Part shown: piece by piece, positions 15,788 through 60,841 of the stretch
How the letters are laid out: every line of letters starts with the position of its first letter
Position numbering within the stretch: the first letter of the stretch is position 1
Assembly (NCBI GenBank): GCA_017506865.1
Contig: JAFCMP010000057.1
Coordinates: forward strand, 744,001-808,000
Reading direction: 5' to 3'
DNA from: Tribonema minus
Lineage: Eukaryota > Sar > Xanthophyceae > Tribonematales > Tribonemataceae
DNA: 64,000 nt
Notes under the pieces: model-generated
Seen by the model: the letters and a program-made list of their open reading frames with translations, nothing else
Databases searched by the model: none
What the model was told of the DNA's origin: nothing
Translations under genes and position numbers: made by a program

Positions 15788-18700
15788 CTATTTCTTGGTG
15801 GCCATAATGTCCGCTTTGTAGTCCATGAACGTGCCCTTGAACTTGTTGCACTTCCCCTTGCCCACCACCCACAGCTCCGTGCACACCTGCAGACAAAAGC
15901 GTCGCGCATGAATAATTCATTTAAACTTCAACTACTTGAAGTAATGTCAATGGCCGCGCTTCTCACAAATATCGTGTGCCCATTGAGCCTCGGTATATCG
16001 AGCTTGTCCAGTTGATAAGCTTGAAAATGCGCAAGAAATGCACATGCGGCGCACGGGTCTCATGCACTACACCAACTTTATACTTGAAGACTTGTTGAAG
16101 TACACACAGAACCTCAGGCAAAAAAGGCTGCTCGGACTCTTCGACCTCAGCGTCGCAGCACCACAAGTTCAAGAATCCCTTGATAGCCTACACAGTTGCC
16201 TAGGTATGTAAGCATTCAAGCTGCGCACCACAAGTTCAAGAATTTCTTAATAGCCTACACAGTAGCCTAGGTATGTAAGCATTCAAGCTGCGCACCAGCG
16301 CTCCGATACAACATTATGGCCAAATGCAAGCTAGAAAGCACGTCCGACTACTATAAACAGCTTTCAGAGGGTTCGAGCTTAGGGCTTACGGCAATAAAGC
16401 AACTAGAAGTAGTCGTCTTAACCAACAAACTCAATCAATGCAGTGCCGTGCTGACAAAAAGAGCAATGCTGCGCACCTGTGAAATGAAGTGCTGGTCGTG
16501 ACTGACACATATGACGGCACCCTTGAACTCCCTGAGCGCTTGTATCAAAGCGTTGATCGTCTCCATGTCCAGGTGGTTGGTCTGCGCAAACAACAACCAA
16601 GATGCAGAGACAGGTGCGGTTTGAGTTGCGCGCGGCCACGGCCATTTGATGGGTATGTACACATGCGCACCAATGTTCACCTGTTGATTGTGAGTGAGCA
16701 ACTGATTGTGAGCGTGTAGCGGGGGCAAGAATCAACCATCATGGCTCTGAAAGCGCGTTGTCAGTGTTATGCAACTGGATGTGGGTAATGGTATGATGGG
16801 TGGAAGTTCCTTAACTTGAAGTACTGTCGTCACGCATGTTACCCTAAAGCGTGCAAACACGTGGATCGATGCATGCGTTGGTGCAATCGCAAACAAGCCG
16901 AACCGATCGATGATTGGAGTTTATGTGCTTGTGCAGAAGTTGCAGCAGGTCATCCATCGAGCTTCACTGCAACACTGCTCGAATGGCCATGGGCAACTCC
17001 GAAACGTACGTTTCTACATGTAAAATGCTTGTAAACATGGGCAACTCCGAAACGTACGTTTCTACATGTAAAATGCTTGTAAACATGACAATCAAGCAAG
17101 GGTTTCCTTTCTCCAGTGTTGTTGCCAGAACTGTCACTCAGAGTGAAGGGGTGACTGGCAAACATTTTCTAATTTCCAATCTTCAAATCTCACCGGCTCA
17201 TCCATGATGATGACATGGGGGTTGGAGTAGGCCAGTGCCGCAAATGCGACGCGCGATTTCTGCCCCCCACTGAGGAACTTGAGGGGGCGCGTGGCAATGT
17301 TCCCCGTGATGCGGAACTTTCCCAGGAACGATCGCATGTCCTGCTCCGGCACCTTGGGCCACATGCGCAGCATGTTGTCCACCGCATTTAATCTGCGGAG
17401 GAGAAGGCGCAATCAATCGCTGGTGTTGAAGCGCAGTGCTCAAATTTCAAAAAGACAAAACCACGGCGATTGTTCCAAGACCAGCACAGCTCGCGCAGCA
17501 CACACGGCGTGAGACAGACTGCTTGCAAACTGCAGTGGATGGCAACAGTTGCTTCAGACTTGGCGCGCGGCTGTACTGCCAAGCTCATCACGACATTCTC
17601 CGAGATTTTTCAGAACTTGTGAGCGTGTATGATCATCATCACACCTGATGGACTGTGAACCACGTGCTGCATTCTGCGCGCTGCACACTGCTTGAAAAGA
17701 AATGCAGTAACCAACTTGCGCACCTGTAGTCAAACTGCTCGGCGTGGTGCTGCGTGAACGCGGCGATCTTGAGCTGCGGATTCCGGTGCACGTAGCCCGA
17801 CACTGGCTTGAGCTTGTCCATCATGACGTTGAGCAGCGTGGACTTGCCAGCACCATTGGGGCCCACAATGGCTGCATGTACAGCAGATAGGACAAGTAAG
17901 GCGACGGAGCCGCCAAACACACAGGGCCGCAGTCAGTACACAGCTTGATGGCGTAGAATCGCAAAGGCGCTTTGCGCAAACTTGAACGTGGCGCGATGGC
18001 TGCATGCAGGTAGGGCCAGTAGGGCAGCGAAGTGACCCAAGAAACGACACAGCTGTCAGCAAAACAGCATGGGATATTGCAGCCCGCTCTGCACAAAGAT
18101 TTGCGGTCGTGCCGCAGGGCATCATGTGTGCGCACCTTGCGTGCTTGGTGTTGAATCCTACAATGACGGTTCGTACATGGTGTTGCAGTGCTGGTAAAAT
18201 CTCATGTTTCGTCGCTGTGTCTCTGTGATGAAGTAGCACTCAAATGACCAAACTGCTATTAATTTGGGTGACCCAAACCGCGACAACAAACTTCAAGAGA
18301 GTGACCCCCCCACACCTTCCGCTCTCCATGTTGACGTTGTTGAAGTGCACAATCCGAAGCAGCAGCCGTGCACGGTTTCAAACCTCAAGTGTGTGACGCC
18401 CCCTCACCTATTCTGCTCTCCATGTCACGCCGGAGTGCACGTTCTAGACCAGCAGGCCATGCACAGCATCAAATTCACGCGTGTGACGCCCCATCGAACT
18501 TCAAGCGTGTGACGCGCCCTCACCTATTCTGCTCTCCATGTCCACGCCGAAGTGCACATTCTGGAACAGCAGGCCGTGAACAGCGTCATAGCCGAAGCTC
18601 ACGCCCTCCACGCCAAGAACAGGACGCCCAATGGCGGTCGGCTCGGGCAGCGAGAACTCAAAGGGGATCTCGTTTTCGACCTCGTCTATTTCCTCCATCT

Positions 18701-21700
18701 TGTCGAGGGCCTTGATACGTGACTGCACCAGCGACGCGCGCTTGGCGTTGTAGCGGAACTTGTCGATGAACTCCTGCATGTGCTCGCGCTGCGCCTTGTT
18801 GGCCTGCGCGCCGGGGGAAGGGGGGGGGGGGGGGTCACATACCGTGAGCAGCGGTTGCGGTCTCACAGCGGCGCGCGCGCACCTCATGCGCCTTAGCCAC
18901 GGATGCGTATATGAGCAGGCAACGCGCACGTTCGATCTGATCTAGGCCAATGTGCTCGCAGCAGGGGCTCTCCAGACAGGTCTTCAAGCAATGGCGTGCA
19001 ATCTGCTTGGGAGGCTCGTTGGCCTGTCTGCGCAGCCAGCAGCCGGCACTCGCGACGCCACGTTCAATTACTCTGAAGAACAGCGCCAAGCGGTGGATGT
19101 GATCATTGAGTGGCGTGCAGTGCAGGCAGAGGCGGTCGTGAGTTGGGCGTGCGTAGAGGCATGGGGAGCATTGGTAATCCCTTGTACACGAACGAGTCAG
19201 AATGACACAGAGACACAAGGACGTTCAATTGATTGCTTGCTTCAGGTTTGGTAAACCCAAGACACCGGGGGTTCAGTTCCACATCTGCTGAGTGTTGCCA
19301 CACTGAGTGTTGACGCAAAAGAAATGCTGTCCGCGTTTCGAATTCCAGTTGAACTTTCACATTGACTGCTGTGTGCTATGAATCTGACTCAAATCATATT
19401 GCAACTCCCAGCACCTCTGACCTGTCTGATGCGTTTGCACCAATACCTCTAGTAGTATCTCAAATTCTTTCGGCTTAGGTTGTAGAAATGTGCATTCAGA
19501 CACATACTATGCAACTTCAAAGCTTCAAATCAACTTAGTGCATCATGTACCTCACCTTGGTCACAGGCTGCATCTGCAGGCCTTCCGACACTAGTGATAC
19601 TGGACAGTAATTCTGCTGCTTAGACAACAATGACTGATACGTCTATTTCATTGATCCATACCATACATTCATTTGAGAGCCATCTGTTGTGTGTCAGCGC
19701 TCGGCGCTCACCTCGTACGCTCTGCGCTGGTTCTTCAACTGCTCGCTGCGGACGACCTCAAACGTGTTGTAGTTGCCCTGGGAAACGAAAGCAGATACCA
19801 GGGGTTAGAAAATGGCAGCACGCGCTTTGCGTAGGCATGAGCGTCAAAGGCGCAGGCCGTTAATGATGCCGAGGAATTACATGAGAAGGGTGATGCACAG
19901 CAGGTACTTCTTGAAGTAGCACACATCTCTCCTAGCAATTGAGGAGCACTTTGCTACGATGTGAGAACTCCGCACGGACGCTCACGAATGCCATCAATGA
20001 TGACCATGTGCCCCAACAAATCTCCAATTCCTCATTTGCCGCCCTTCTGTCCCGAAGCACCGCAAGGCCCAATAGCACCACCTTGCAGCAGCGGGGTTTC
20101 ACAATGTTAAGGTGTATGGTATCCGTATAAGACTTACTGGGGATCGCGCGGTTGTAAACTTCAACTCTTCATTCCTACGCTCTTCTCTACGTAGACGCGC
20201 CGCAAGGCCCGATAGCGCAACACTGACCTTGTGGTAGTTGAGCTTTGTGTCGTTGAGGTGTACAGCGTCTGTACGGACCTCATTGAGAAATGCGTGGTCA
20301 TGAACGTCAACTCTATTAACATTCTTAACTACCGTATTATCGACAATTAAGCCCATGGGGCGAGTTATTTGTTGAGGCGAAAAAAGGGGGGTGGGGTGCC
20401 CTTTATGTACGCCTGAAAAAAGGGTGGGGCACATTAATGTTGTGGCCTGATTGGCGTTGCCTACCACCTCCACTACCAGGCGTGGTATCGAGTGCCGTGT
20501 GTGAAGCGCGCGAATCGACAAAACTCTTGAAGTTCATTGAGACCCCCCGAAGTCGGTGCAGCAGTGGCATCAGCGAAAGGCACGACGGTGTGCGATGGCG
20601 TAGTGGCGTGCGGTAGGCCGTCTGAACATTGCGTGAAGTGCAGGAAGCCAAATGACGCAGTATGGTATGCATTTTCTGCACTGAAAGGCCACTTCAGCAT
20701 CACCAGCGAGCACCAGATATATATATACATTTATTATTGGGGATGTGGGTTCTGCTGCGGAGTGTGTTGTAGCGACGGAGATTGCACGTGCACGCTGGCT
20801 GAAAGAAAGGGGGGGGGCACAATATTGTGAGCTCAGAAAAAGGGTGGGGCAACTTTTTGTGAGAGCACGGAAACTCACAAAAAAACTCGCCCCATGGGCT
20901 TAATTATCGATAATACGGTAGACACACTTTAAGGCCCAACAGCGCCACTGACCTTGCAGTAGCTTGAGCTTCTTTTTGTTGAAGTGTATGGTGTCTGTAC
21001 AGACCTCATTGAGAACTGCGTGGTCGTGAACTGCAACTCTGTTTGTTACTTCTACTATATCCTTTATTCAGACGCACTTTAAGGCTGGACAGTATCACTG
21101 ACCTTGTAGTAGTTGAGCTTCTTTGTGTTGAGGTGTATGGTATCCGTACATTCCTCATTGAAGAACGTGCGGTCTTGAACTTCAACTCGATGTCAACATT
21201 CTCTTTGTAAACGCATTTCTTGAAAGGCCCAACAGCACAGCGCCACTGACCTTGTAGTAGTTGAGCTTCTTCTCGTTGAGGTGAATGGTATCCGTACAGA
21301 CCTCGTTGAGGAACGCGCGGTCGTGAGAGACCAGCAGCAGCGTCTTGGGGTACCCCTTGAGGTACTCCTGCAGCCAGATCACTGCCTCTAAGTCCAGGTG
21401 ATTGGTCGGCTCGTCCAACATGAGGACTGCGGCAGAGAAAGAGCATTCGTGTAAGTGCACCTTGAAATTATGTACCGGGTAGGATATTAAATTCAAGGAA
21501 AGGGCAAGATGGCGCCGGACTGTGGTATTACGCGACAGCTGAGTATTTGAGGGCAGAACGGCACCAGAGCTGAGGTCAGCAACAGTTGGGGGTGTCATGC
21601 TCCAAATGCAAACATCAAAACATTATAGTTGAGATGGCCAGCATGAGGTCTGCGGCAAAGGCACTGTGCGTGTGTGTATGCTGTCGTCACAAGGCGCCTT

Positions 21701-24700
21701 GGACGACACATGCGGACGACAAAGGCATTTGGCACAAAGACATAGTGGCCAGCCAGACTCAGTGGCTGCTGCCTGCCAAACTGCGTGCCGGAATGCGCTG
21801 GTATGCAGTAGAAGTGTATGCGCTATTCGCAGCTACCTACCGCCAAAGTGGCTTGTGCAACGGCATTGTACACAAGAGAAACCCACCCAAAGGCATTGTG
21901 CTTTGGTATGATACACAAGAGAAACCCACTGCAAGGCACAATGAAAATGGTACCTTGAGCTGGCACGAGGAGGGCGCCGGCACCTCATCAGCGCGTCCAG
22001 TGTCAACTAGGGGTAGGGTTAGGGTTAGCTCTGTTGCGTGAGTTCTCTTCTCAGATACAAAACAGCACTCAGAAGCGTTTCCTCAATACTTTGTGAGCCT
22101 AGAGTGCGCCGCGCCGGGCCTGATCGCCGCTGCCGCGGTCTCCACGCTGCCCTAGCCCTAACCCTAACCGCAACCCTACCCCTAACCTAACCGTAAGACA
22201 GCGCTACCTTCAAGCTGAACGAGAGAGCGGCGCCGGCGATGGCTACGCGCGTGCTAGCCACCCCAAGGCACTGCGACATCAAACCAAAAACAACATTTCA
22301 TTTGGAACCACCTCAGGCCCACAGTGCACAACGGCGTCGGTCTCGACCGCCGCAGCCACACAGCAATCCTCACGCGCCACCACAGCAACTGCCAACAACT
22401 AGAATCCATGCGTGCAACAGCGGCAGCAGCATGCGTACCTACAATGACTCTGGTCACAAACAAAGCGCACGTGCTGACGAGTGCGACGCAAGGCGGCACG
22501 CAGCGTCGCCGCCTACCTTCGGGCAGGATGAAGAGGGTGCCGGCGATAGCGACGCGCGCGCGCCAGCCTCCCGACAGCGCGCTGGTGGTGCAGGCACAGC
22601 AATCCTCACGGCTCACCGCAGCGACAGGGCAGAGACAGGCAGCGCCACCACCTACCTTCGGGCTGGATGAAGAGGGCGCCGGCGATGGCCACGCGCATGC
22701 GCCAGCCTCCCGACAGCGCGCTGGTGGTGCCGTGCATCTGCGCGTCGGTGAAGCCGAGGCCGTGCAGGATGGTGGCCGCGCGCGACTCCGCCGTGTGCGC
22801 GTCTATCTGGTTCATGCGGTCGTAGATCTGATGTGATCCGCGGGGCGGGGGAGGGGGCAAGAGGTGCGAGTGCTGAGCGTTGCCTCGTGGCGCTTATATG
22901 ATTGACGTAATGTGGAAGCTGAGGCGTGCTGCTTATCGGGAAGAGGACCACAGGCGCTTAAAGGAGTTTTGAATACAGTTGAAGTAAGGCTGAAGATGCG
23001 CGGCAGGTCTCTCTCCGAGGGTGGCACAACGCTCAGCAAAAACCCTTCTTTTCAAACGATGCACACGAGACCCAACGCCAACACCGTTCAAATGCCGCAA
23101 CAATTGGAGAAGAATCCACCAGCCAATGCCGAACAACAATAAACAAACAGTCGCGCCGGAGTGCCATGAGGAGCGTCACCTCTTGCGTTCTGACGGCGTC
23201 AAGCGCGGCCTGCGCGTCGTCGTCGGCAGAAGACGTGCCGTCCGCTCGCGCCGCCGCGCGCGCCGCGATGGCCTTGGACTCGTTGATCAACTGCAGGCGC
23301 TCGACGTCGCTGTCCAGGACCACCTCCAGCACGGAGCGTTCTGAGGGCTGCGTGATGCGGGAAGTGGAGGGGAGAGTCACCACTTAGGGTTAGGGTTGGG
23401 ATCAGGATTAGGCTCGGCGTCGCTGTCCAGGATGACTGCAAAGCACGGAGCGCTCTGAGGGCCGAGCGGTGAGGGAAGCGGAGGGGAGAGTCACCACTTA
23501 GGGTTAGGGTTAGACTCGACAATTCCAGGACGACCTCCAGTACGGACCGCTCCGAGGGCTGAGCCATGTGGGAAGTGGAGGGGAGAGTCACCACTTGGGG
23601 TTAGGGTCACGGGTCAGGCTCAAGATCGCTGGCAGCGACCACCTCCGAGCACTCTGAGGGCTGAGCGATGTGGGAAGCGGTGGGGAGAGTCACCACTTAG
23701 GGTTAGGGTCAGGCTCGACGTCGCTGTCCAGGGCCACCTCCAGTACGGCGCGTTTCTAGGGCTGAGCGATGTGGGGAGCGGAGAGGAGTGTCACCCCGGG
23801 TGCAGCGTACTTGAACTCTTTGCGCACCAGCCAGCAGGGGGTGATATGTGGAGCGGAGAGGAAGTCGCCGTGAGTTCCGGAAAGCGAACATCAAGCAAGA
23901 GGAGAGTCACTGCAGGTACAGCAAACTAAAAAAGTCTTTGCACCTGAGGAGGGCACGCCTGACCGCACCTTGAACCGCATGCATGCTTCATGGTCAGCGC
24001 AATATTGCTGCCGCCGCATCGTCAGTGCCGCCACTTGCAGTACTTGAAGTACTGGTGTGCATTATGTCAGTGCAACAGGGACAGACCAGGTGACCGAGGT
24101 GCGGCAGTGGTTGCACGACCCACTGACCAATTGATTCAGGGGCTACATGCAGTGCTGTCGCAAATCGGCGCATGCATGCGGGCTTCAGCGCTGCAGCAGG
24201 CACCCAATGGCAACTTCATTTCAAACATTCAACTAGCCTGAGGAATGACATGTTCTTCAGTTGATGCAACCAATAAGATGGGGCAAAGTCACCCAGCCAA
24301 TATCCGCGGTCATCAGCATACTTCAAGTACTGTATATACTTCACAAAGAAACTTCCATCGTACATGAGCGCTTTACTGGCGACGTTCACAAGGGCTAACG
24401 AGGGAAGTAAGGTTGCAAGCAGAGCAAGGCATCTGCTGACGCTGCTGCAGTCCTGCCGCCTTGGTTGTACAAATGTTTGTGCGGAGTGGAGGCCAAAAAT
24501 ATCACCAATGTACCTCAAAGTATACACGTTCAAGTGCTTGAAGTATGTGTAAGTCTCACCTTGATCTCTTGGCGCACGTGGAGGACGCGATGGTGTCTTG
24601 GGAATCCCTCAATGTCGTACGACGCCATGTGCCGGAGCAGCGTCGTTTTGCCTGCAATGCGCAGTTGAAGCAATGAGGTCAAGATGCGGCGTGGCACACG

Positions 24701-27700
24701 ATGGCGCTTCTGCTGTGACGCTACGCGCCTGAAAGGTGGCTTTTCCAGCAAATAGCAGTCAACAAGTGATGTCTGCAACGCTGCTGCTCTGTCAAATGAT
24801 ATGCTGGCGAGCGGTACACCTGTGGACAACATAGTCACTTGCCGTAACTAAATGCACTGCATTCATTCCTTCAGGGCAGGCGCTGCATACAGGATCCAAG
24901 CCGCATCATGACCTCGAAATAAGTAGGGAGGGCCTTTGCACTGAGGCAGACAGCATCACAACCAGTGAAGGTCCCACAGGCGTCATACAAACTTGAAGTG
25001 CCCAAGAACAAACCAACGTGCAAGACGCACGCATCGCACCGCACATTCTTCTCAGACAGCAAGTAACAGTAAAGTGAAATCCCATGCTCTCACCAATGCC
25101 GTTCTTGCCCGTCAGACCGTACTTGCGACCAAATGACAGTTTCAAATCGGCGGCCTCAAGCAGGACCAGCCCACCAATCTCAATGCCAAAGTTGTGAACG
25201 TGTATGTCCTTCTCATTGTTGCCGGAGCTGTAGTCGGGAAGCACCTGCAGTAGAAGAGCGAACATAGTGATGCGCATGTCAGTGGCGGGCATGATAACGT
25301 CTTGTGGGTACATACCGTCTGTAACCTATCAACAATGCATCCAATAGCTCACGCCGACGGGCAAATGGGACAGCTGGCTTGAATGAGCTGAACCACTGCA
25401 AACAAGAAATTGTAGGAGCCACGAAGGCGGCGGCACATGGTTGCAGCCAGTAAGCTGAACCACCGCAGCCGATTGGAGAATCCAGGAACAACAAGGCGTT
25501 GACACATGTTCGCACGGGAGCACTGCTGCCGTACACGCAATCGCGGCGCGGCCATCCTAACCATCATCCTCTGCGCAAGCGTGCATACACGCGCTGAAAC
25601 ACCAGCATTGAGTTTTCTACAACTTCGCTGGAAGTACGAACAAGAAGCTGTGATTTTTTGGTAGAGGGCCTGCGCGACGCACTGAGAAATGCTTTGCACA
25701 CAGCGACGGCGGAGGTCTGCTGCGGCCTGCACAACATCATGGCAACATTGTCCTCTCCGGCGTCCTCCACGCCATCGTGCGCGTACACGCAACAACACCG
25801 AGGGGGCACTCGCACTGTCTGAGCACTGCAACTGTGGAGCACTGCTGCGCTACACGCACCATCATGGCAATGTCGTCCTCGCCATCATCCTCCACACCAC
25901 CGGTGAGTGCCTCCAGCTCCGCGAGGAAACGCTCCTGAAAAGAGAAACACGCGCAAGCACAGCAGCGCCGCAGGCATGAGTACAGACGAGCACCGGGCGC
26001 TGAGCAGCTGACCACTACTCAAAAACATTTTGCTGCGCAGCACTGATGGCAACATGCGCTGGTGACATCGCCGCAGGCCATTTGCAACCGCTAGTGGCCC
26101 CAGGAATGTCAAGTCAGGATGCAGGCATCAGGACGGCTGCCCGACAGCGACCTCGAAGTGAGCCTGCCCCCTAACCCCATGCGCCAACCCTGGTCGCAAT
26201 GCCAGGTGGTCGTCAAAAGCTGAGCGTACACTGATGATGGCAGCTTCAGCAGCCGCCAACAAACAAGCAAGAAAACTGCCTTCCGCTGTTTTGCACTACT
26301 CAGGCTCAGCTGTATGTGCTAGCCTCATTTGAGGTGATTCGCACTTCGCATGCTGGTCCATGCCATCCATAAGCCTGTACATTCACATGTGAAAACACGC
26401 GTGCTGACCAGTGCGTGGAGAGAATGCGTTTGACAGCAGCAGTGCCCTAGAGTTAGAGTTGCGTTTGGCTCACCTGTTCTCGCTCAGCCTTCCGCATGTC
26501 CTTCTTGCTGACGTGCTGGTCCCAGTCGCGCACTTGGTTGAACTGCTTGCGCACCTGGCAGTTGCGGCGCAGCAGTTACACGCAGGAGCGGAGAGGCACA
26601 CTGTCTGCTGGCAGCCTCATTTGAAGTTGCATAGTGGAGCAGGTGCGAACTGTGCAACATTTTTGACGTGCAATTCAGTTATCCGCAAGGACGCCATGAG
26701 CCGCTTGATGCGCGGAGTTGAAGAACGATCATCATCACTTGGAGACTTGTGGTTTGATGCATGCCTGAAGAACAGCATTCCATCCATGCTCCATGAACGT
26801 GAGCAACCCCCTATTTGTTTGTGAAGAGACACAGTAGTGCGCATGGCCTTGTGCGCTGAGGCGCGCAGCGACGTGCGCATGCGCAAGTGCAAGTGCAGGC
26901 AACTTATCTGTTGAATTAGACAGCACATGTGATTGCAGAGGACGTCAACAGGAATTGCAGACGCAAGTGTGCCAGTAATGCCCTGGTTTTGAGGGTATGT
27001 ATGCTGTCACTATGAAATGCAAACAGCTGCCAGGTGTGCAATACTTCTATAATAATATAAATTGCCCCAGAGTTCGCCTTGTGGCACATGACATCCCCAT
27101 TATCATGGCCACGTGGTGTGCGGTAGCTGGTTGTGATACGCTTGTCAGCTTTGCCACGTGTGCTACATGCGGGTAAACTTTGATGGCAGGTCGACAAGGC
27201 GCATGTGACGAAGGCGGGCAACGTGGAGGTGAAAGACATACCTGTGCGCACGGAGTTCGCCAAACTTATTGCGCAGCAAAGCCATACACGTCCACCTAGC
27301 AGTATCGACTGAAGTAACTACAGCGCGCACAGCACCATTGGCCTAGCCTGCGTCCCCACTTGCCAGTCACCTACGCGAAACTTCAATGTTGAAGCTGGGA
27401 CAGGCGACCGTGCCACACAACACAATTGCTGCTGACCTTATCCGTGCCCCACATAAAGTCCAGGTCCGCCTTTGATCCTGCCTCCTCCTCTCCGTCCTTC
27501 ATGCGCACCATTTTATCCAGCAGCTGCGGCCGTGCCTCTATCACCTCGTCCCTGTCAGTCGCGAAACGCGTGGCAGTGCAGATGACTGATCAGGTACTTG
27601 GAATTTTACCGGTGTCTGCAATACAGCGGCGCACAGGCTGATGTGCAACGCGTGCCTCAACACAACAACACATTGTAATTACGCGTCAGAGTATGGTACA

Positions 27701-28582
27701 TTGGTGTAGTTTGCCTGGTCTCGTCTGTGCGTCCGTGTACTGATAATGGAGCAACGAGCGCTGCAGGTGGTGAGACGGCGTCATACTGACGCTGATGCAC
27801 AATTGAAGCTGGCGCACATCAAGCCAGGCTCCCCGCCTCAGCCAAGAAGGCTCTGCCGCTTGTTGCCAATACTGTACCTGCTCAGGACGTCACAGCCTTT
27901 GCATCACAGCCCTGGTTCCTTGCTTGCATGAAGCAAAGGTGACATGCCAGGTCGTCATGGAGCTACAGTCAGGATGCTGCTGCATTGTCCATATCCAGCA
28001 GGGGACGAGTGCCCCACATCACACCGAGAGCATACAAAGCTGTCCAGATCGTAGGCCAATGAAGCAAACCTTGTCTCGACTTCAAAGATGGTGTTAAAGC
28101 CCACGACTGGTGATGCTGCGCTTCATTGGCAAGTGTTCTTAGACATGATTGACACATGCAGCGTCGTCTGTGCTCATCTCATTCAAGTACAAACCCGTTC
28201 TTGTAGAAACAGCTCATGAGCAGCTCATGTCTGCGCACCTCCCATGATGAAGGGCAGGCAAATTGAGAGGCTGCGGCGATATAATTCATCAGCGCGTGCA
28301 GACCTTGCACACTTACCGCTTCTTGGATCCACCATTCGCCAGCCCCAGTGCCACCCTTAAAGCTTCAGCCAGCTCGCTGATCTTCGCCTCAACCTCGCTC
28401 TCGTCTTCCAACATGCCGCTGCTCAGCAAAAATGGTCCCACTGTCTCCTGCAGAGTCTCCTCATCGCAATCGTGGCTCTCCACGTCCGCCAGCATGCTCC
28501 CGACGTACTCGAAGACATCAGCATCCAGCTGCTTCAGGGCGGCCAGCTGTGAGTTGACGACCGCCTGCACCTTGGGCTGCAT
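15788..28582 (-). CDS. ABCF3: ABCF3/GCN20-type ABC-F ATPase
   Basis: A soluble twin-ABC protein; GCN20/ABCF3 proteins act with ribosomes and GCN1 in translation control. Fifteen exons: 28582-28317, 27551-27437, 26554-26474, 25934-25860, 25244-25094, 24651-24560, 23347-23180, 22827-22656, 21426-21251, 19777-19712, 18803-18524, 17871-17724, 17392-17194, 16581-16477, 15886-15788 (TAG). They sum to 2193 nt (730 aa) with every phase matching. Exon 1 carries the GCN20/ABCF3-specific N-terminal domain ([14 protein letters not shown]). NBD1: Walker A GKNGIGKTT split across exons 5/6, signature LSGGW, Walker [13 protein letters not shown], switch [10 protein letters not shown]. Linker: [21 protein letters not shown]2: [40 protein letters not shown]. 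Introns make up over 80% of the gene and contain exon-fragment arrays. All catalytic motifs are intact. Confidence 0.97.
16159..16292. repeat. 67-bp tandem duplication in an ABCF3 intron
   Basis: Copies 16159-16225 and 16226-16292 are nearly identical, including a shared CTAGGTATGTAAGCATTC segment, and lie in the last intron. Confidence 0.9.
16988..17083. repeat. 48-bp perfect tandem duplication in an ABCF3 intron
   Basis: Copies 16988-17035 and 17036-17083 appear identical, which suggests a recent event. Located between exons 13 and 14. Confidence 0.9.
18310..18475 (-). repeat. Two degenerate copies of the ABCF3 exon 11 3' end plus donor
   Basis: The exon 11 end (MESRI, donor GTGAGG at 18523) recurs at about 18411-18467 and 18317-18375, each with ATGGAGAGC...AG followed by a GTGAGG- or GTGTGG-type donor and GTCAC...CTTGAAGTT-like intron sequence. 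The copies have lost the exon frame. Confidence 0.85.
18820..18834. repeat. G15 homopolymer (C15 polypyrimidine tract on the gene strand)
   Basis: On the ABCF3 strand this is a C run about 17 nt upstream of the exon 11 acceptor at 18803. Confidence 0.85.
20099..21180 (-). repeat. Four partial copies of ABCF3 exon 9 in the following intron
   Basis: The 3' half of exon 9 ([16 protein letters not shown] to LNYYK, then donor GTCAGTG at 21250) is repeated at about 21103-21180, 20953-21030, 20228-20305 and 20101-20158. The first three keep the GTCAGTG donor, and two keep an open frame ([16 protein letters not shown] and [16 protein letters not shown]). Each copy starts after a GAGTTGAAGTTC-like sequence instead of the upstream exon half. 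Confidence 0.92.
20330..20920. mobile_element. 587-bp MITE-like element with about 35-bp terminal inverted repeats
   Basis: Left end 20332 onward (CCGTATTATCGACAATTAAG...) and right end up to 20918 are inverted repeats of about 35 bp with one mismatch. They are flanked by TA at 20330-20331 and 20919-20920, consistent with TA target duplication (Tc1/mariner-like or similar MITE). Subterminal AAAAAGGGTGGGGCA motifs occur near both ends. No transposase ORF is visible. The neighbouring tandem exon-9 copies lack the insertion, so one of them serves as an empty-site paralogue. Confidence 0.85.
21953..22592 (-). repeat. Partial copies of ABCF3 exon 8 in the following intron
   Basis: The exon 8 end ([20 protein letters not shown], donor GTAGGT) recurs at about 22517-22590 as [20 protein letters not shown] with donor GTAGGC; at about 22208-22255 as an RVAIAGA fragment with GTAGCG; and more weakly at 21953-21985. 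All lie downstream of the true exon (22827-22656). Confidence 0.88.
22009..22193. repeat. Interstitial telomere-like tracts
   Basis: GGGTAGGGTTAGGGTTAG at about 22009-22028 and a CCCTAA-rich tract in opposite orientation at 22150-22193, both inside an ABCF3 intron. Confidence 0.85.
23300..23805 (-). repeat. Five tandem units of the ABCF3 exon 7 acceptor region with telomere-like DNA
   Basis: Units start at about 23300, 23413, 23515, 23619 and 23714 (95-113 bp). The first contains the true intron end and exon 7 start ([10 protein letters not shown], acceptor at 23348). The others are degenerate copies lying in the upstream intron. Most units include TTAGGGTTAGGG-like sequence next to GAGAGTCACCACTT. 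Confidence 0.92.
25517..25795 (-). repeat. Two degenerate copies of ABCF3 exon 4
   Basis: About 25726-25795 reads [14 protein letters not shown], parallel to [14 protein letters not shown] in true exon 4 (25934-25860). A weaker third copy lies at about 25517-25570 beside another GCACTGCTGCxxTACACGCA sequence. Both lie in the intron after exon 4. Confidence 0.8.
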
Positions 28583-30240: not shown

Positions 30241-30394
30241 GTTTTCACCTCTGGCACGGTGGTAGGTTCGCTAGTAAACAAGTACTGCACGCTTTCACAC
30301 TTCCAAGAGCACACTACGTGTGGTGATCACTGGGGTACTCAGGTCCAGCACGCCCACCCTGACGATATGGAGGCCAGCTTGCTCACATATGTAG

Positions 30395-30716: not shown

Positions 30717-30745
30717 TGATGAAGAACGCACTTGATAGAGGTTTT

Positions 30746-31715: not shown

Positions 31716-31724
31716 AAACAAATC

Positions 31725-33086: not shown

Positions 33087-33234
33087 CCCACCCCTCCAGA
33101 CCCGGGTGATACTGTGTATGTACTTTTATTATATTCCACTTGTGGCTGTGGAAATGCCATGTTGTAGGTGTGTCGCCTTGTTCTCACTCTTGGATGTAGC
33201 ATGCAAAGCTTGCACGCCACACCCCGCCCCCCAC

Positions 33235-33870
33235 ATCACCCCCAACAAAGCATCCGCAAGCGACTGTCCCCCACATACTAGCAGGGATACCAAACAAAGC
33301 TACAAGACTCTCCCCCCACAGACAGACCCGTCTTAGGGCCACCCAGCTCCACGCAGACTCCATCTCAAAGTTTTCATGCAGGCCAAGGTCACCATAATGG
33401 GCCCTGAACTGGAGATTGTGGCTATCTACGTGAACCCCGATATCATAAAGATAAGCAGAGGGAGTCACTGGGCGCCAGGCGCTGGCGCTAGAAAGAAAGG
33501 CTATATAACTAAGCAAAGCATCGCCTCCTTGATGAGCGGGACGGTGGTTCACCGGGCCTCCCATATCACCCCCAACAAAGCATCCGCAAGCGACTGTCCC
33601 CCACACACTAGCAGGGATACCAAACAAAGCTGCAAGACTCTCCCCCCACAGACAGACCCTTCTAAGGGCCACCCAGCTCCACGCAGACTCCATCTCAAAG
33701 TTTTCATGCAGGCCAAGGTCACCATGATGGGCCCTGAACTGGAGATTGTGGCTATCTACGTGAACCCCGATATCATAGAGATAAGCAGAGGGAGTCACTG
33801 GGCGCCAGGCGCTGACGCTAGAGAGAAAGGCTATATAACTAAGTAAAGCATCGCCTCCTTGATGAGCGAG
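33235..33870. repeat. 330-bp tandem duplication with in-phase open frames
   Basis: Copies start at 33235 and 33565 and are about 95% identical. Because 330 is a multiple of three, both strands stay open across the junction (minus 34149-33184, 321 codons; plus 33376-33846, 156 codons). The plus reading includes ELEIVAIYVNPDI, faintly reminiscent of retrotransposon endonuclease sequence, but I cannot assign a family. Possibly a fragment of a decayed element. Confidence 0.8.
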
Positions 33871-35560
33871 GTCACGGCTCACCGCAGGCTGCAAGCCTGA
33901 CAAGATATTGCCATTTACCGCTGCGAGTAACTTGTGGTTGGTGCCGTGGTGTGCAGCCGACTCCGCTTGCTCTCCAAGCACGCCAAGCCGCTGCCTGTCC
34001 CTCCTCCGCACGCCAGCCAGGGCTTCCGAGACACCACCACACGTTTGAAGTTCTCTCGAAGGGGCTACGCACGCTGGCATCACCTGAGGGCCGCTGGTGC
34101 TAGCTCCTGCAAGCCCTGCAGCCCAGCCCACCCACCAAACCAGCCGCATTCGCTGCCACGCCTTTCGGCGTTAACGAGCTTGGGACGCTTGTGTACTTTT
34201 ATTATGTACTTATGATCTTGTATTTATAGCAGCCCCAAGGTGGGCTTGATGCGTTGGATAAGAATGCAAAAAACTAAAATCGGACGGGCCCTTAGAGCCC
34301 TGCGTTGCAGGCTTGTACTAGACTCATGGGGGGCAGACACAGCGGCACCCAGTCTGAGCCACACCTATCGTAGCCGATGTCTCCATCTCTTGAGCGAAAA
34401 CGCCGGAGGACCGCGGTTATGCCTCTAGTATACATTTGGGCCAGAGGCGCCCGGTCCTCGATTCCTTGCCTAAGCACGCCGCTGACGTGCCTGGCCGAGG
34501 TTCTCTTTCTTGCGTGTTCAAGCAAACGATCTACAGTGTGCCCTGATGCTATCCGTATCCCCATGTTCCAATATCCCCTGCTGCTGCCCAAAGCCGTATC
34601 CTCACCACACGCGACTCCGCAGCTCCTGCTCACAGCCAGCATCTCCCATCCCCTTGCTGCCTGATGCACCCTCGCCACCATCAGCGCCACCGCGAGTGCT
34701 GCCGCACCTCTCGGTGCTAACGAGCTGTAATGTATGTACTGTAATGTAAGTGTTGTTTGTACAGATGTGCAGGCTTGCCTTTGCAGATCTTGACAACCAT
34801 GGATGCCCTCGGGCCTGTCAAGCTTTGTCATGAGGCACCAATGTACATGATGACGGCTGTACGCATGTCTATATTCACACTGTCAACATCGCACCCTGCT
34901 AATTGAGATCGCCAGTAGAGCAGCAGGCAGCATACCATCGGTCAGGTGGCAGATGAGATGAATATGACAATGGATTGCACGAATGTCCATCTCAGCACTA
35001 CCTGTTCCTGCTCAGTGCCCTGCACGCCCATGCCATTCGCCTTGCAACGTGGTCACATGTGACCATGTCACAATGATGGCAAGCACAGTGATCGATAAAA
35101 TAAGCCATCTGGTGGCGGGCCTAGAAAATTCAAACACTTGCATTTTCAAGCAGCGCGAAGCATTCGCCCCTCGCGCAAGTGTAGTTGCGCAGGGATGAGC
35201 GTTGATGTGGTGATAAAATTGACATGAAAAACAGGTGTGCATTGTTTGAATTGACAGCTCTGACATGCGCTGCGTTCGTTGAGACACGGTCATACCCTCT
35301 TCAAATGCTCAGCTGTTCTGTGGCAACACTGCAGCCGGCTTTCAGAACAACAATTTGCAGCATTCGGCATCACAAGGAGACATGCAGCAAGCAGCACATG
35401 AAGAGAGCACATGAGCCATCTCACAGTATCATCTTGTCTTCATAGCGGCCTTTAGTGGCTTGGCTTGTCCATGTGTAAAACTAAAAGCGAACAGTCAGAG
35501 CCCTTTATTGCAATATAACTCTTGCCGACTCGCTGTAGTTCTGCATGCACATCTACATGC
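33871..35560. other. Gene-poor stretch with related repeat ends
   Basis: 34140-34215 and 34690-34750 share CTCGGTGCTAACGAGCT-like and GTATGTACT-like sequence, suggesting two related element ends. 34980-35460 is a diverged copy of about 36960-37650. No supportable gene. Confidence 0.55.
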
Positions 35561-35681
35561 TCATTGTCCGCACGCTGACATCTGAATCAACTTCTACCCG
35601 AACTGTAGAACTGTCCGAGCTGTTGCTGCAACAAGTCGCATTGCTTGCACTGTACCTGCTCTGACTGCACGCGCCACCGCC

Positions 35682-36581: not shown

Positions 36582-36584
36582 GCC

Positions 36585-38690: not shown

Positions 38691-38870
38691 TCTGTTGCCC
38701 CTGGTCGTTGGTGCAGACACAAATGACTGCTGCTTCTGCTGCTGCTGTTGCTGGTGCTGCTGCTGTGGCGAGATTCGTCGAAGTGAGATCTTCAAGTTTT
38801 TCTTGAAAAACTTCAAGTTGGATCCTTGTGAAGAATCTGGGACAGGAGCCCGACGGACCGTACTCTTCAA

Positions 38871-52424: not shown

Positions 52425-52438
52425 GTGGTTGTCGTTGC

Positions 52439-52538
52439 GACACTTTCAGACTGTCATACGACATGTAAATTCCTTACAGCTAGATGCCAATCATCTGGGC
52501 TTTTTCGCGCCCTGAGCGAGAATTAATAAAAAGTACAT
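52439..52538 (+). repeat. 100-bp dispersed repeat, copy 2, in the TBC 3' UTR
   Basis: Begins 15 nt after the TBC stop codon and matches 37316-37217 in inverse orientation. Contains AATTAATAAAAAGTACAT, a possible polyadenylation region. Confidence 0.9.
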
Positions 52539-53790: not shown

Positions 53791-55813
53791 TCAGTTGATA
53801 GGGGGAAGAACCCCCCCGGCGCGCTGAGCCAGCGCTGCGCCCACTGGCACCAGGTCCCCCACGATGGTGCTGAGGCTCACGAGGAGCAGCACCAGTATGG
53901 CCACGCCGTTGATGGCCTCGGTGACGCCGCGCTGCAGGCGCTTGCCGTTCACAGCTTCAACTGCAAGGAAGGCCAACTGCACGGGGGGGGGGGGGGGGGG
54001 GGGCACAAGAGGTTGCGGATGGTCAGCGGCCTTGTCACTGGTCACGCCTGCTGCAGACCTTCAGTTGTCAGCGCGTTATTCAATGCACGTGCAGCAATGT
54101 GAAGTTGAAGCAGAACCTGCAGCTGCTGGAGCAGTCGACGCTTCACGGCTTTGGCTGCAAGCAGAGCAGCTACCGGCCCCACTAAGACCAAGACATGAAG
54201 ACCAAAGCACATCAAATGCAGACGTCGCTTTGTTGGATGACACAGGTGATAAGCACACATTACAGCATCCACATACTTTCAAAAAGAGACTGCACACGAC
54301 GCCCCTCACCTGACCGCCGTCGAGTCCCGGTATCGGCAGTGCGTTGATCACGGCGAGGTTGACCGATATGATGGCCGCAAACTGCAGCAGTGCCAGCGCG
54401 CCGTCATAGCGCGCGAGATCCGCCCCCTGTCGCACCACCCCCACCGGGCCGCTCAAGTTCTCCATGTCTGTAGCGAAGAGGGCGCAGCAACCGGGACGTC
54501 AGCGGCTCGGCTGCGCGCTGTGCAAAAGGTGGCAGCTTGCATTATTCAACAAGCAAAGCTTCCCAAGAAAATCAAGTTCAACCAGTTTCATCTTCATGGT
54601 GAGACCTGACCCTCACCGCAACCTGTAACCCTGGTCTAGCCCTAGCTTAGGCAAACAGGTGTTCGCCTCATGCGACAACCACAACTCTCGGGCACACTCG
54701 CGCGATAGGCACCTGAAACAGCGACGCCCCGACAACAGTGCAATCATACATGCCCGTCTCCAACCTCTGCGGCGCGACGTCAAGCGCAGTTCTATAATGC
54801 ATCGCCCCTTGCGGCTGTCCGCGCCTTCTTGAAAGCGCCCGCACGCTGCGCCGCATGTGCATCGGATGCAACTACATGAACGCGGCGGCTTCCCCACTGC
54901 AAGCTGCCGACACGTGTGACGCGGTGCGTCGCTGAGCACTGACACAAGAAACGTCAGCTTTGCCAGCACATGCCGGCGCCAGCTCACCTCCTGTTGACAA
55001 GCTCTTCCGCAACCCCGCAGTGGTGAGCTGAAACAGGCGTCCCGTCTCCTTGGTCGCCATTCCCGCGGCCTGGCAAGGATACCACAAGTTTAATACCGTT
55101 GAATGAAATAATTTCAGATGTCTAGAGGGTGCTGCGAAGTGCGTACGTGGCGACTCGGCATGTTGGCACAACCGCGCGGGCTGTTCGCATTGGTGGGCTC
55201 TGTAGAAAACGAGCAAGCACCAGATGCTGTGCTCGCAATCCGACGCACAACACACACCAGGGTAACGATGTTTGAACTATCATAGTCTGTGTGTGTGTCA
55301 GCTCGGACTGCAACCAACATCTGGTGCATTTGACCTTACAACCCTAGCCATAACCCTAATTTTAACCCTAACCCTGACCCTGTGCAAAGGCATGACTGAG
55401 CATGAGGGTGGTCTTTCAGCCTGCTTTATAATGTGTGTGGACGCAGTACAGCTGTGTCACCTGAGGTAACAACACCGCAGCGCTAGATCTGAAACTACAC
55501 ATCAGGAAAAGCACTTGGTGCCTCATATTGTGCTCTCATTCTTGTGAAAGTTTGGGCTTATGTTTTGATAGTCTAGCCCATGTTTTTTTAACAATTGTTG
55601 ACAATATGTTGATGACCTGCATCAACATTACACACCACAAACCTCACAACTATTGCAGCGCTGTCAAAGCACTCCCATTTACACAAGAGCGTTCTGTGAA
55701 GCATCATGCACTCCGCTACAGTCATGATGCATCACATTTCAGCTACTTCAACTTGAAATCATGAACTGCGGAAAACAGCCCTGTCGGCGCTAGCGGCGTG
55801 CGGAATGCGCAAC

Positions 55814-55854
<41 letters not shown>

Positions 55855-58800
55855 GGCACATGCAGCCCAGGATGTTGTTTAAACAGCCAGGCACCCTAGG
55901 CGCGAACCGATAGCTGGCTGCGTGGCGGCAAATGCAACCGCAAGCCACTGGAAGCATGGGATTCTGGTTGAGGAAAGCGAACCATCACGAATGCGCACCT
56001 CAACTGGACTGCTGGGGAACACGCTGTCGACGCGGTCCGTGTTGGGCACGAGTCGCACGCCGATGGAGTAGTAGCCCGGCTTGCTCTCCGTCGGCCGCAC
56101 AATCTGCCGCACCGGCCTGCCCTGCCGCACCAGCGACAGCTGCGGGTACGCGCGCACACGGCAGTTACGTGGCAGTTACAGAAGGGGTCAGCGTTCTGCT
56201 GCTGCGTCACGCGCTTGTGAGAGTTGTGTACAAAAGTTCAGGTGCAATATGCCCCTGACGGACATCCTGTGAAACCCGTGGAAACCCGTGGTTCTGAGCG
56301 CTGCTGCCAAATCATTGATGAATGCCCCAGTGCCCTTCAAACCTCCCCCAGGATCTGTGGGCGATGCTCATGATCAGTCATTACCAGAAATGTATGCAAA
56401 GTGATCAGCCATAAACAGCAATGTACGGAAAGCGTACCGCTACATATGTACGACTTCAGCATGAAGTCACCACCCCTTTCATCACAAGATAGAAGTGCCT
56501 CGCCTCAATGGGTGCCCCCGTTATTGAGTGGTCACTCGCGGCATTACGCAAACATGGTCTCCCTAAAGACGCATGCAAACCCGGGGGCAGCAGCAGACAC
56601 ACGCACATGACTCCTGCGCCAAAGCACTGAAGGCATGGAAAGTGTGCCGGCATATATGCACGACTTCAGTGTCAAGTCACCTCTTTTCAACTGCTATGGA
56701 AAACTCACATCACCAAGTCTTTGATCAATAGAAATACCAGTGGCTCACCTCAATAGGTGCCCCCCCAGATGTCTTGATCATCCCCACAGCAGCCTCCAGG
56801 GACCCCTCCCCCGCCGCCAACGCCCTGCCGTTGATGCTGAGCAGCGTGTCCTGAGCCTGAACATTATGCATGATGCAACGAAAACGCCGTTTCAATCGCG
56901 TGCTACAGGCTGTTGTGACCTCGACGCGGTACATGAGCATTGCATTATACTGTAGACGTCTCAGCAACTTCAGCGTCGGACCCATGATGTATGCGGGCAT
57001 GCGGTTGATCCTGTCAGCATACTCAGTACTGTCGTGAAATCAGTGATATGCAACGTTTGCTCGCGTGATGAACGCAGCACAGAGTACACAGTGCAGTGTA
57101 CACATTCGTGCACTGTGCACTGTACACTATACACAGTACAGGGAGGGTCAGCAACGCACAGCAGCTCCGACTGATGTACACTGACACGCAAGAACGCGTT
57201 TGAGCTGCGCATGCAGCTCCGCGTTTGGTACGCTTCACGTCGCCAGCTGACGCGTGCGCTTGTGAGCACAAAGTGACGCACCATGACATCCCTTCACAGC
57301 TCTCAACACAGCGATCACATCCGGATTTTGACATCAACGAAGACGCTCGGTTACCTACGCAGCGCCACTCACACATCCATTGCCTTGTCTTGCGCAAGCT
57401 CAAGCCGGTGCAGCAGTCGCCAAAGCCTAGCAAAGAGCACCACCCCCCACGTTCCTCAGCAGCAAACCCCATCAGCTGTAGCGCCCATTGTCGTAGTGAA
57501 GCAAAACTTCAACATAAACATCAGGTGCGCAGTCCAAAAAAACAGCATGGCAACCACACGAAGCGCACGGTGCAGGGCGAAGGCTTCAAGTGTGACGCAC
57601 CTGCAGCCCCGCGCGCGGCCGGCCCCGCGTAACCGCCCACTACTTGAGCACAACCTCAACACAAACTTTAACTATTTCACACACGCAGCAAAGTGGTAAA
57701 CTCACGCAACGCCCAGGGCCAAAATTTCAACTGTGACGCACCTGCAGGCCCGCGCGCCGCCCATTGTTTAGCACAACTTTAACATAGACTCCAACTATTC
57801 CACACATGCGAGGTGGTAAGCTCACGTAACGCCAGGTGCCAAATGTTCAACAGCGATGCACCTGCAGGCCCGCGCATGAGGCCGGCCCCGCGGCGTCCGT
57901 CACTCAGCCACAACTTCATCATAAACTTCAACAGTCACGCATCCCGACACCAAAGTGGTGATCTTGTGCAACTTTCAGGGCTGAAACTTCAAGTGTGACG
58001 CACCTGCAGGCCCGCGCGCGCAGCCGGCCCCGCGACGTCCGTCACCGCGCTCAGCACAACGCCCGGCGAGTAGCTCATGTGCGGCACGCCGCTCGCGCTC
58101 ACGGACGCAAAGAGGCACGCCCACGTCAGCACGATGTTGGCGATGATGCCCGCGCTGATGACAAGTGCGCGCTGCCCCACCGGACGGTTCTGCAATGGCG
58201 GTGGCGGCAGCAGCATGTATATATTATAAAGAGAGAGAGGTATGGTGTACTGCTGAGGGGCCGGGTGCGCTCCCGTGCGTGGCGCCAATAGTACTTAGTG
58301 CCGGTGATTCTCGTTGCCGCGTGTGTGTGAGTGCATGCAAATGCTAGTGCAGACACTGGTATGCTAGTGAGAGATTTGCGCTGCTGCCTGCACGACAGAT
58401 CGCCTGACACTGCAAGCAGCGAGGGTGCGCATCACTCTGCCCGCTACGCGCATGTTGCTAGGATTACGCGGACAGTTACATGACGATTGACAGTGGCGCG
58501 TCACTACATCCAGAAAAGCATGCAGAAGGTTGTGTACTTCAATGTATACATATCATAAGCTGCAGGTGCACACTTGATATGTGTACGCGCTTGCCATGTG
58601 TGCCAAGCGCCAAGCAGCAGCGCTCAGCAGCAGCGCTCGCATCCCTGCTCATAAAAAGAGGCAGCGGTCTTGTAGCACACTGCCACAGTGTTGGCGCGTC
58701 TCGTTGTGCGCCGACACTAGCTTGAGTTAGGGTTAACTTGGGTGCACCTAGGCTTTGACAGTGATTCCTGCCCCTTCTGCAGACCCCATCCCCGCTCTAA

Positions 58801-60841
58801 GTTGCACCCAAACATTTGATGTACAGGCCACCTCATAGCAGGTGTGCGCACAACGGCATCGCATTTGCACCACTCGACGCGATCGGGCGCTTTGCGAGGA
58901 TTCATCGTTGCTGAGCACCCAAATCACAATAAAAGTACTGCGCTGTCTCCCTTCACTGCACAACATACGCATGTCGCTTCACTGCAGCTCCAAGCAGGGT
59001 GTGTATGACTGCAATCTCAACAAAGTATTGAACAACTTCCCAAAACTCTAAATCTCCTACTTGAACATTTCAAGAGGTATATACACTTGAAGTTTGTACA
59101 AGAACCATTGGGTTTTTCCAGCAGTCGGTGCCCAAGTGCAGCAACACTCAACAGAGTTCACTGCTCACGTCAAACAAAGCAGCTGTGATAGCGTTATTGA
59201 TGTGAAATGTTCCAGCCACTGTCTGGCTGTATCAGTCAAGAGTGCAATAGCACTTGCAGGTAACAAACATTTGCTCGCAACAACTATGAAGCTTTAGAAT
59301 GCCAGAGTTGTTTATTGTGTCGCAGTGAAATATTCAGGCTACCGTTTGTCTGTATTGGTCAGGAATGTAGTACGCTGTCCCCATGGAAAGGAGGGGTTGT
59401 GTTTTTCACCTTATGACACCGGATGTTACAGCCTGGCAGATCATTCTGCCATGCTACAAATGCTGCATGTGCCGACATGCGGCACTACACACGACATAAT
59501 GGAGAACACAGAGCTGTCACTCCTATGACACGTCCAAACTGCATGACTTGCATACCTGAACCAATTCCGTGTATGCACGCCTGTGACAACATGTCCGATC
59601 AATCCTGCTCCATGATCTCCCCCTCACCACATATTTATAATGACACGAATTGCACACCTACAGACATTCGCGTATATACACCTGCAACAAGTCCGGGTGG
59701 TCATCCTCCACAATCTCCCCCTCCTCCCCCTCCTCAAAGTTGACGGGGAAACTGACAAACCCCCCCACCGGCACCAGCCGCAGCGCGTATTCCACATTCT
59801 CTGCCTCATCCCGCGACTCTTCCTCCTCTGCGCCTCCCAGCTGCAGGCCGCGCCCCTTCTTGTAAGAGAGAAGCTTGGGGCCGAACCCGATGCTGAAGTT
59901 CTGTTGCAGGCAGGTGGCAGTGAGTAGGCACAGCCTGTTGCTGAGTTGAAGTTGAAGTGTGTGCTCGAGCGTCACTTTTATGGCCTCTTGAGAGCACAAG
60001 ATGAGCAGCGAAGAGAGCACCAGTGAGCGCAAACTGCTCTGGATGCTGCGACGGCAACTGATCTGTCAGTGATGTCTGTCTGCGGCTTGATGTCTATCAA
60101 TTGCAGCTCATGAGGCAAACCTTGACTTGCTTGCTGAGCCCCTGGCCAGGAGCTGAGCATATGTACCTAAGAGCACTGAATTGAGATGCACATATGGGCA
60201 CACTGAAATACCATTTGGAGTGCCACTATGCCTTGCAACAGTGTGTTGTTCGCATCCAATTCTGAAGTTGTACCTCGCAGGTAAAAAGTAGGCCTGGCTT
60301 TGGCTTGCTCGCAGGCTACAAGGAGAGTGAGCCCCAGCACATGCGTGCGGGTTTGTACCAGGCCTGGTGCGTAAAGCAGCAGGATCATCCGAGATGACAT
60401 AACATTACTCGCTGGACTTCTGAAATGACGCGTTGAGCCTGGATTAGTGCTCTGTGAAGACAGTGGTCCACTCACCTTCACTCGTATGCCTTGCGTGCGG
60501 GCAGCGAGGAAGTGTCCCGCCTCGTGTATAGCTATAACACCAGTCAGCACCAGCAGCGAGCTGGCTTGGAACACCAAGCTTTGAAGTCCTCCAGCAAGCA
60601 TGGTGGTCGTGCTTCGCCGTCTTCGGCGGCTGTTACTGCTGACGCCGGCATGCTGAACGCGAGATGCAGCAAAGGCACCAGAGACGCAGCCAACGCCACT
60701 GCTCGTCTGTAATCTCAGGCTGCTGCTTGGGACAAACGAATGTCGCACTGCTGCTCCCCACTGAACGATCGGAGTGAAGGAAGAACATTGGGCTAGCTGT
60801 AGAGCCAGCAGAGCGCCAGCGAGACAGCGTGTGCGGGGCAT
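53791..60841 (-). CDS. RseP/ARASP-like M50 site-2 protease, probably plastid-targeted
   Basis: Eight exons: 60841-60476, 59900-59682, 58189-58004, about 56857-56750, 56139-55999, 55069-54988, 54467-54310 and 53976-53791 (TGA); 481 aa with all phases matching. Intramembrane zinc metalloprotease: active-site HEAGHFLAARTQGI in exon 1, FSIGFGPKL and LRLVPVGGFVSFP in exon 2, membrane helix QRALVISAGIIANIVLTW in exon 3, a PDZ domain in exons 3-5 (GPAARAGLQ, DTLLSINGRAL), LSGPVGVV in exon 7 and the zinc-binding third motif NALPIPGLDGGQ, then a final hydrophobic segment with GVTEAINGVAILVLLLVSL. The N-terminus has a hydrophobic signal-like stretch ending CSSF, like the ASAF motif of complex-plastid targeting signals, followed by a Ser/Arg-rich transit-like region. 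All catalytic residues are present. Confidence 0.95.
53983..54003. repeat. G21 homopolymer (C21 before an acceptor on the gene strand)
   Basis: On the protease strand, 21 C are followed by GTGCAG and the last exon, so the C run is the polypyrimidine tract. Confidence 0.9.
55342..55855. repeat. Interstitial CCCTAA tracts
   Basis: A degenerate tract at 55342-55382 and a nearly perfect one at 55811-55854 that mixes CCCTAA and CCCTAAA units. Both lie in introns of the protease gene. Confidence 0.9.
57072..57142. repeat. Imperfect GTGCACTGTACAC inverted repeat
   Basis: Alternating GTGTAC/GTGCAC blocks could form a long hairpin. Intronic, function unknown. Confidence 0.6.
57601..57905 (-). repeat. 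Three degenerate copies of the protease exon 3 end plus donor
   Basis: The exon 3 end (gene strand GCGGGCCTGCAG, donor GTGCGT at 58003-57998) recurs at about 57861-57905, 57741-57765 and 57601-57635, each followed by GTGCGTCAC or GTGCATCGC and then a TTGAA motif. Units are about 120-140 bp apart. Confidence 0.85.

Follow-up and report, generated by a model that had tools for sequence, protein, structure and literature searches.

Copies of exon edges in the adjacent introns of Tribonema minus: local, direct and found on both sides of exons

The question raised by a 64,000-nucleotide stretch of the Tribonema minus genome (contig C57 positions 744001-808000, hereafter the window; the genome comprises 158 Mb in 554 contigs) is why pieces of its exons recur within its introns. 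In two genes of the window, one encoding an ABC-F protein (ABCF) and one an M50 protease, a sequence-only reading had noticed donor regions repeated downstream, and had proposed a genome-wide process, perhaps coupled to transcription or splicing, that duplicates 5' splice-site regions into introns and lengthens them. Here, we have compared the splice junctions of the window with those of a sample of genes from across the genome: the copies are local and direct, lie in the adjacent intron only, occur on both sides of exons and prefer exon edges, they decay near-neutrally, and the introns that hold them are longer.

The two genes and their copied junctions are located as follows (window positions):

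15788..28576, reverse strand: ABC-F (ABCF) gene, 15 exons as numbered here (PDB match and gene finder based on a hidden Markov model, HMM)
25699..25902, reverse strand: ABCF exon 4 (25860-25934), donor region (25824-25902) and downstream copy (25699-25777), by self-BLAST
23299..23810, reverse strand: ABCF exon 7 (23180-23347), acceptor-side array, by self-BLAST and junction search
22497..22730, reverse strand: ABCF exon 8 (22656-22827), donor region (22636-22730) and downstream copy (22497-22591, 89%), by self-BLAST
20064..21326, reverse strand: ABCF exon 9 (21251-21426), donor array, by repeat searches and self-BLAST
18289..18588, reverse strand: ABCF exon 11 (18524-18803), donor array of three copies, by self-BLAST
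53791..62849, reverse strand: M50 protease gene as modelled (HMM gene finder; Peptidase_M50, E 1.5e-36)
57573..58045, reverse strand: protease exon 3 (58004-58189), donor array, by self-BLAST and junction search

The identity of the ABCF gene is given by a PDB match to ABCF1 across the exons (E 1.1e-123); the exon count starts at 28317-28576, in agreement with the earlier numbering, and the exons from 25244 down to 15788 are homology-supported, those further upstream being gene-finder calls. The donor-region copies that had been noticed downstream of ABCF exons 4, 8, 9 and 11 and of protease exon 3 have all been found, beyond chance. Exon 4 has a single, weak copy (74% over 81 nt by self-BLAST), while exon 8 has, besides the copy listed, a third, short and decayed one (22204-22254, 84% over 51 nt). 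The array of exon 9 consists of five copies of the exon tail, the donor and the intron head, spaced by ~146-150 bp, the functional copy being the first (about 21224-21326); at exon 11, the functional copy (18494-18588) is accompanied by copies at 18378-18471 (87%) and 18289-18373 (76%). Protease exon 3 has three copies downstream of the functional one (77-88%), and the donors of protease exons 59682-59900 and 56749-56850 have one weaker downstream copy each (69% and 76%). Two particulars of the proposal fail: instead of stopping at the donor, the copies show identity that persists past it into the intron (0.76-0.87 per 6-nt bin to +59), and copying is not restricted to the downstream side, as ABCF exon 7 has, next to its functional start, four upstream acceptor-side copies, spaced by ~97-114 and each including the intron end. 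The exon 7 array also contains CCCTAA telomere-like stretches.

In our main sample, a junction is counted as copied if a self-BLAST match at most 2.5 kb away in either direction spans it by at least 10 nt on each side, at a cut-off where ~1e-3 chance matches are expected per query. This sample, which we refer to as the supported set, is drawn from homology-supported exons and contains 85 donors and as many acceptors (84 and 84 after correction, one C514 exon without copies having been counted twice, under L035 and L040); it excludes L029, L030, L037 and L038, which are intron-poor or overlapping, with L029 and L030 restored in the counts by group of loci. The supported genes other than dynein and kinesin were taken partly from stretches chosen for holding arrays, and for this reason two further sets have been counted separately: the dynein and kinesin genes, located by Pfam, of which the three kinesin genes were picked for many spaced exons and hence long introns, and 20 stretches of 10 kb, placed by hand at round coordinates before their sequence was seen (two of them adjoin the window).

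In the hand-placed stretches, the exons are predictions only, all those of at least 40 nt being counted; they come from our own small HMM gene finder, trained on the ABCF exons and self-retrained on the window and the 20 stretches, which has yielded 209 exons in total. That the finder recovers 11 ABCF exons is unavoidable, since those are its training set; independent support comes from six predicted proteins that match Peptidase_M50, GH5 cellulase, GH81, methyltransferase, metallophosphatase/cyclin and, weakly, an NAD-binding family, and predicted exons coincide, compared by eye, with the Pfam matches of kinesin and dynein.

In the supported set, junction-spanning direct copies occur at 29 of the 85 donors and at 26 of the 85 acceptors. 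Every donor copy is located downstream (53/53) and every acceptor copy upstream (68/68), all 121 being inside the adjacent intron; no inverted spanning copy has been found at any of the 170 junctions within 2.5 kb each way. The dynein and kinesin genes alone give 15/43 donors and 17/40 acceptors, and in the cellulase gene of locus L023 three consecutive exons are copied at both edges. Donor and acceptor regions are affected at about the same frequency, so the supposed specificity for 5' splice sites is not borne out, and a bias along the direction of the gene is rejected. The window alone shows a lead of donors (7/40 against 2/40 acceptors), which explains the directional impression that it had given; because the copy contiguous with the exon body is the one that remains in use, the apparent direction of copying is a matter of geometry.

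The preference for exon boundaries, in contrast, is confirmed by the comparison of junctions with control points located within the introns of the supported set, 100 nt or more from any exon and clear of copies derived from junctions. A copy is found at 25/390 of these interior points and at 1/58 exon centres, and the difference is sharpest for young copies, i.e. those with at least 85% identity, which occur at 28/170 junctions and 2/390 interior points (Fisher p = 1.4e-13). The hand-placed stretches agree, with copies at 35/284 predicted junctions against 69/1545 points off exons (p = 2e-6; young copies at 17/284 and 16/1545), and so do the dynein and kinesin loci, with 35/105 junctions against 19/249 points (p = 6e-9; young copies at 17/105 and 2/249). 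The process is thus found across the genome sample and beyond the window, as had been proposed, and we take the boundary preference to be real and several-fold in size. An exon copied at one edge tends to be copied at the other as well (odds ratio 4.1, p = 0.006); for the two ends of one intron, the association is not significant (odds ratio 2.0, p = 0.26).

It had been suggested that an equal frequency of upstream copies, together with no preference for boundaries, would indicate ordinary tandem duplication; upstream copies are indeed as frequent, but the preference is clear. A uniform process could still imitate such a preference, if the conserved exon side keeps junction copies recognisable for longer and perhaps reseeds them by recombination. 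Arrays without exon sequence do exist: the 58 arrays are divided into 28 at junctions, 23 intron-internal, 5 exonic and 2 intergenic, and two intron-internal repeats of the ABCF gene are given for comparison:

16158..16297, reverse strand: intron-internal tandem repeat without exon sequence, 67 bp x 2.1, 94%
16988..17087, reverse strand: intron-internal tandem repeat without exon sequence, 48 bp x 2.1, 100%

Moreover, circular shifting of whole arrays places 18.0 ± 2.9 of them at junctions against the 28 found, a weaker excess than in the point-based tests, and the window by itself shows no significant excess (junctions 9/80, interior points 30/504, p = 0.09). Since the conservation of the functional exon side lets junction copies be recognised for longer, this asymmetry has been built into a simulation of uniform tandem duplication with a one-sided exon constraint and without homology-driven reseeding, run once at each of four rates. 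None of the four produces a junction excess (7/80 simulated junctions against 7/66 free interior points; 12/80 against 9/62; 16/80 against 21/66; 28/80 against 25/65), whereas the real data, counted in the same manner, give 55/170 and 18/194. The larger excess among young copies, in both the supported set and the hand-placed stretches, also argues against uniform duplication, which we consider unlikely.

The form of the copies gives an indication of their fate. Summed over ±60 nt, the exon side of the copies is 0.87 identical to the functional site and their intron side 0.79, as expected if on the exon side only the copy decays and on the intron side both sequences do. The splice dinucleotides are often intact (GT in 46/53 copies, with a GC donor in two more; AG in 59/68), and the copies look, from their sequence, like pseudo-exons that decay near-neutrally. 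Among young copies, here those with at least 87% identity (n = 32), similarity extends beyond the exon-side end in only 1/31, so these ends are sharp, and beyond the intron-side end in 8/32. The copied junctions do not differ from the others in splice-site strength (p = 0.21 and 0.77), which has been rejected as the cause of copying; at copied acceptors, the G+C content of the exon edge is 0.67 against 0.62 (p = 0.055) and the exons are longer (p = 0.035).

Each copy stems from the local exon and not from a common element, as the sequence-only reading had it: all lie in the adjacent intron, and a genome-wide search for dispersal, conducted for two array-rich loci (L042 and L023, the best 40 candidates of each being scored), has shown no dispersed copies of their arrays among the matches listed. 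Besides the locus itself, the search with L042 has returned a dispersed element of ~454 bp, located at L042 7475-7928 inside an acceptor array; the listed matches of L023 are, besides its own locus, telomere-like repeats and three short hits that fall on exon sequence and presumably come from paralogous cellulase genes. As to polymorphism between alleles, the genome-wide matches listed for these two loci have shown no second allele. A comparable element is present in the window:

20330..20921, no strand assigned: dispersed element of ~590 bp with inverted ends, by genome search

Near-full copies of this element, 68-97% identical, are found elsewhere in the genome, and the ends of both elements also match the opposite strand, in the manner of terminal inverted repeats. 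The ~590-bp element splits the exon 9 array and therefore arrived after it; more generally, both elements are inserted in exon-edge arrays, and those arrays are older than the insertions.

Interstitial TTAGGG/CCCTAA is frequent in introns (window 22150-22196, 23299-23810 and 55813-55854; L023 6780-8800), and it is probably the telomere repeat, since tracts of it open several contigs (C2, C3, C312, C524 and C533 among the matches listed). The hexamers make up 1.0% of the bases of array copies, 0.84% of gap bases and 0.43% of other non-exon bases, a 2.4-fold difference in density between the first and the last; as they track the arrays without special enrichment in the gaps, telomerase filler at breakpoints has been dropped as a candidate. 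A second motif, GTTGAAGTT / ACTTCAAG with its variants, is over-represented in the non-exon sequence of the whole sample (ratios of ~12 to 78 among the listed 9- and 10-mers) and, at 1.55% of bases against 0.66%, is likewise concentrated in array copies.

We think it fairly probable that these observations reflect local direct duplications that arise often and preferentially at exon edges, the copies that are joined to the exon body surviving in use. The genome would produce local direct duplications with periods mostly of ~60-330 bp, many of them in tandem arrays, and exon edges would be struck at several times the rate of intron interiors. Where a duplication straddles a junction, the copy joined to the exon body (the first one for donors, the last one for acceptors) would continue to work and the surplus copy would end up in the intron; this geometry, together with selection against duplications within exons, would leave donor copies downstream and acceptor copies upstream, and no link to the direction of transcription is needed. 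The surplus copies would then decay as largely neutral pseudo-exons and add to the length of the intron; some would multiply further, and transposable elements can insert into them. From the direct orientation, the local range and the filler-like gaps between copies, we infer that the events are DNA-level duplications made by replication or break repair; the edge preference may arise because exon DNA, or a factor bound at its edge, is a hot spot for duplication, and the co-occurrence of copies at both edges of one exon fits an exon-centred hot spot combined with selection against events inside exons.

Several points weigh against this duplication reading. The Fisher tests assume that neighbouring points and junctions are independent, and the share of copied junctions differs widely by gene (0/10 at L039, 6/8 at L023). 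Between a young copy and its source, 14 junctions have 6-106 nt of sequence without clear similarity, so that simple slippage does not fit every case, although some of these gaps may be due to decay of the intron part. Only 13/30 multi-copy junctions have the nearest copy as the most similar one, and the mean rank correlation over 18 junctions is -0.16, so that an outward conveyor belt, in which the nearest copy is the youngest, is unsupported. Predicted edges with copies are 0/17 at stops and 1/11 at starts, both small samples, against 95/490 at splice edges, and the retention of splice dinucleotides appears somewhat above the ~76% (0.87 squared) expected from exon-side identity. Finally, the median length is 1184 and 1198 nt for introns beside copied junctions and 586 and 584 nt for the others (p = 0.0003 and 0.0002), measured to the next supported exon, which may skip an unrecognised one; longer introns also have more room for copies, so the difference is no proof of cause. 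The proposed lengthening of introns holds as an association, copy-bearing introns being ~2x the length of the others, and that the copies cause the greater length is something we can only infer.

The scarcity of copies at stops and starts hints at a link with splice junctions and not with coding DNA, and, small as the numbers are, it fits an involvement of splicing. Nascent unspliced RNA, R-loops or spliceosome-bound sites might provoke or template the duplications, and the preference for both kinds of splice edge, the exclusively direct orientation, the confinement to the adjacent intron and the contrast of 1/28 stop and start edges with 95/490 splice edges are in keeping with such coupling; the absence of a bias along the gene (29/85 against 26/85) and the occurrence of tandem arrays without exon sequence make it, in our judgement, rather improbable. 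A wider form of the idea, in which the splice junction itself, through exon-edge chromatin, nascent unspliced RNA, an R-loop or a bound spliceosome, would set off the duplication or provide its template and introns would grow from both borders, seems to us doubtful as well, if slightly easier to entertain.

The dinucleotides, in turn, leave a little room for function, i.e. for copies retained as back-up splice sites, decoys or alternative exons, and at L026 1841-2618 the gene finder has joined a real exon and two intronic copies in one frame, which is either a caution to annotators or a source from which alternative exons could come. With the functional splice site invariant and only one lineage decaying, however, ~80% retention is expected under neutrality; splice scores do not differ between junctions with and without copies, and, in comparison with duplicated mutually exclusive exons, the copies are partial exons whose decay is close to neutral. 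We regard a selected function as very unlikely.

The duplication of exon edges has several relatives among known processes. Gao and Lynch (2009) are said to have found internal gene duplications to be frequent, exon-intron borders included, and to have connected them with intron creation; our copies resemble these as duplications within genes that include exon-intron borders. The repair-mediated duplication of vertebrates (Pace et al. 2009, PMC2671141) captures proximal DNA within a few kb in copies of up to 619 bp, sometimes with splice sites included and with filler at the breakpoints; its sources are 278 from introns against 4 partly from exon and intron, and an inverted exon copy is described. 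The local range and similar size of the copies are shared with our arrays, where filler-like gaps are seen; the arrays differ in that exon edges are favoured (young copies at 28/170 against 2/390) and in that no junction has an inverted spanning copy (0/170). In the model of intron gain by tandem genomic duplication (Rogers; Hellsten et al.; PMC4974935 for a case in potato), a duplicated exonic AGGT segment becomes a new intron. There too, splice signals are duplicated, splicing skips the surplus copy and the protein is unchanged; in our case, existing junctions are copied and an existing intron lengthens. The AGGT-bounded pattern of a new intron has not been seen, the copies matching their own intron at 0.79, with no search aimed directly at next-exon sequence. 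Introners and introner-like elements (PMC9860276) are families copied into many genes; they likewise are a genome-wide process that changes introns, but each of our copies comes from its own neighbouring exon edge, with dispersal checked for two loci. No description of a boundary-preferring, two-sided duplication of splice regions has been found among the open-licence papers listed, judged mostly by titles and the openings of abstracts.

Some other duplications of the window and the genome have been noted in passing. At window 33220-33868, a 330-bp direct repeat, 96% identical, touches no predicted exon and is a recent ordinary tandem duplication. At window 35543-38710, two blocks of ~1.1 kb, 74% alike and 2.1 kb apart, contain repeats of the type '...WARANGCPW...', which we take to be ankyrin-like; the blocks are an old tandem gene or domain duplication. 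The chain of ABCF exons called by the finder was extended to 36551, into ankyrin-like exons, which we have taken as a separate gene. Light-harvesting proteins have 92 matches in the genome, which marks it as that of a photosynthetic alga; among these matches, two pairs (C70:84559-85430 with C489:5435-6306, and C490:834530 with C296:14307) have identical scores within the pair and are possibly haplotypes or recent duplicates.

The lengthening of introns is usually credited to transposons. In Tribonema minus, splice junctions have recognisable copies of themselves in about one case out of eight in the hand-placed stretches (35/284) and one out of three in the dynein and kinesin loci (35/105), and the mutational origin of intron length becomes directly testable within one genome. 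For annotators, intronic exon copies can be miscalled as exons; for the genome, the many half-decayed splice sites are raw material for new exons. If mutation in this lineage were directed by splice junctions, its introns would accrete copies of their own splice regions.

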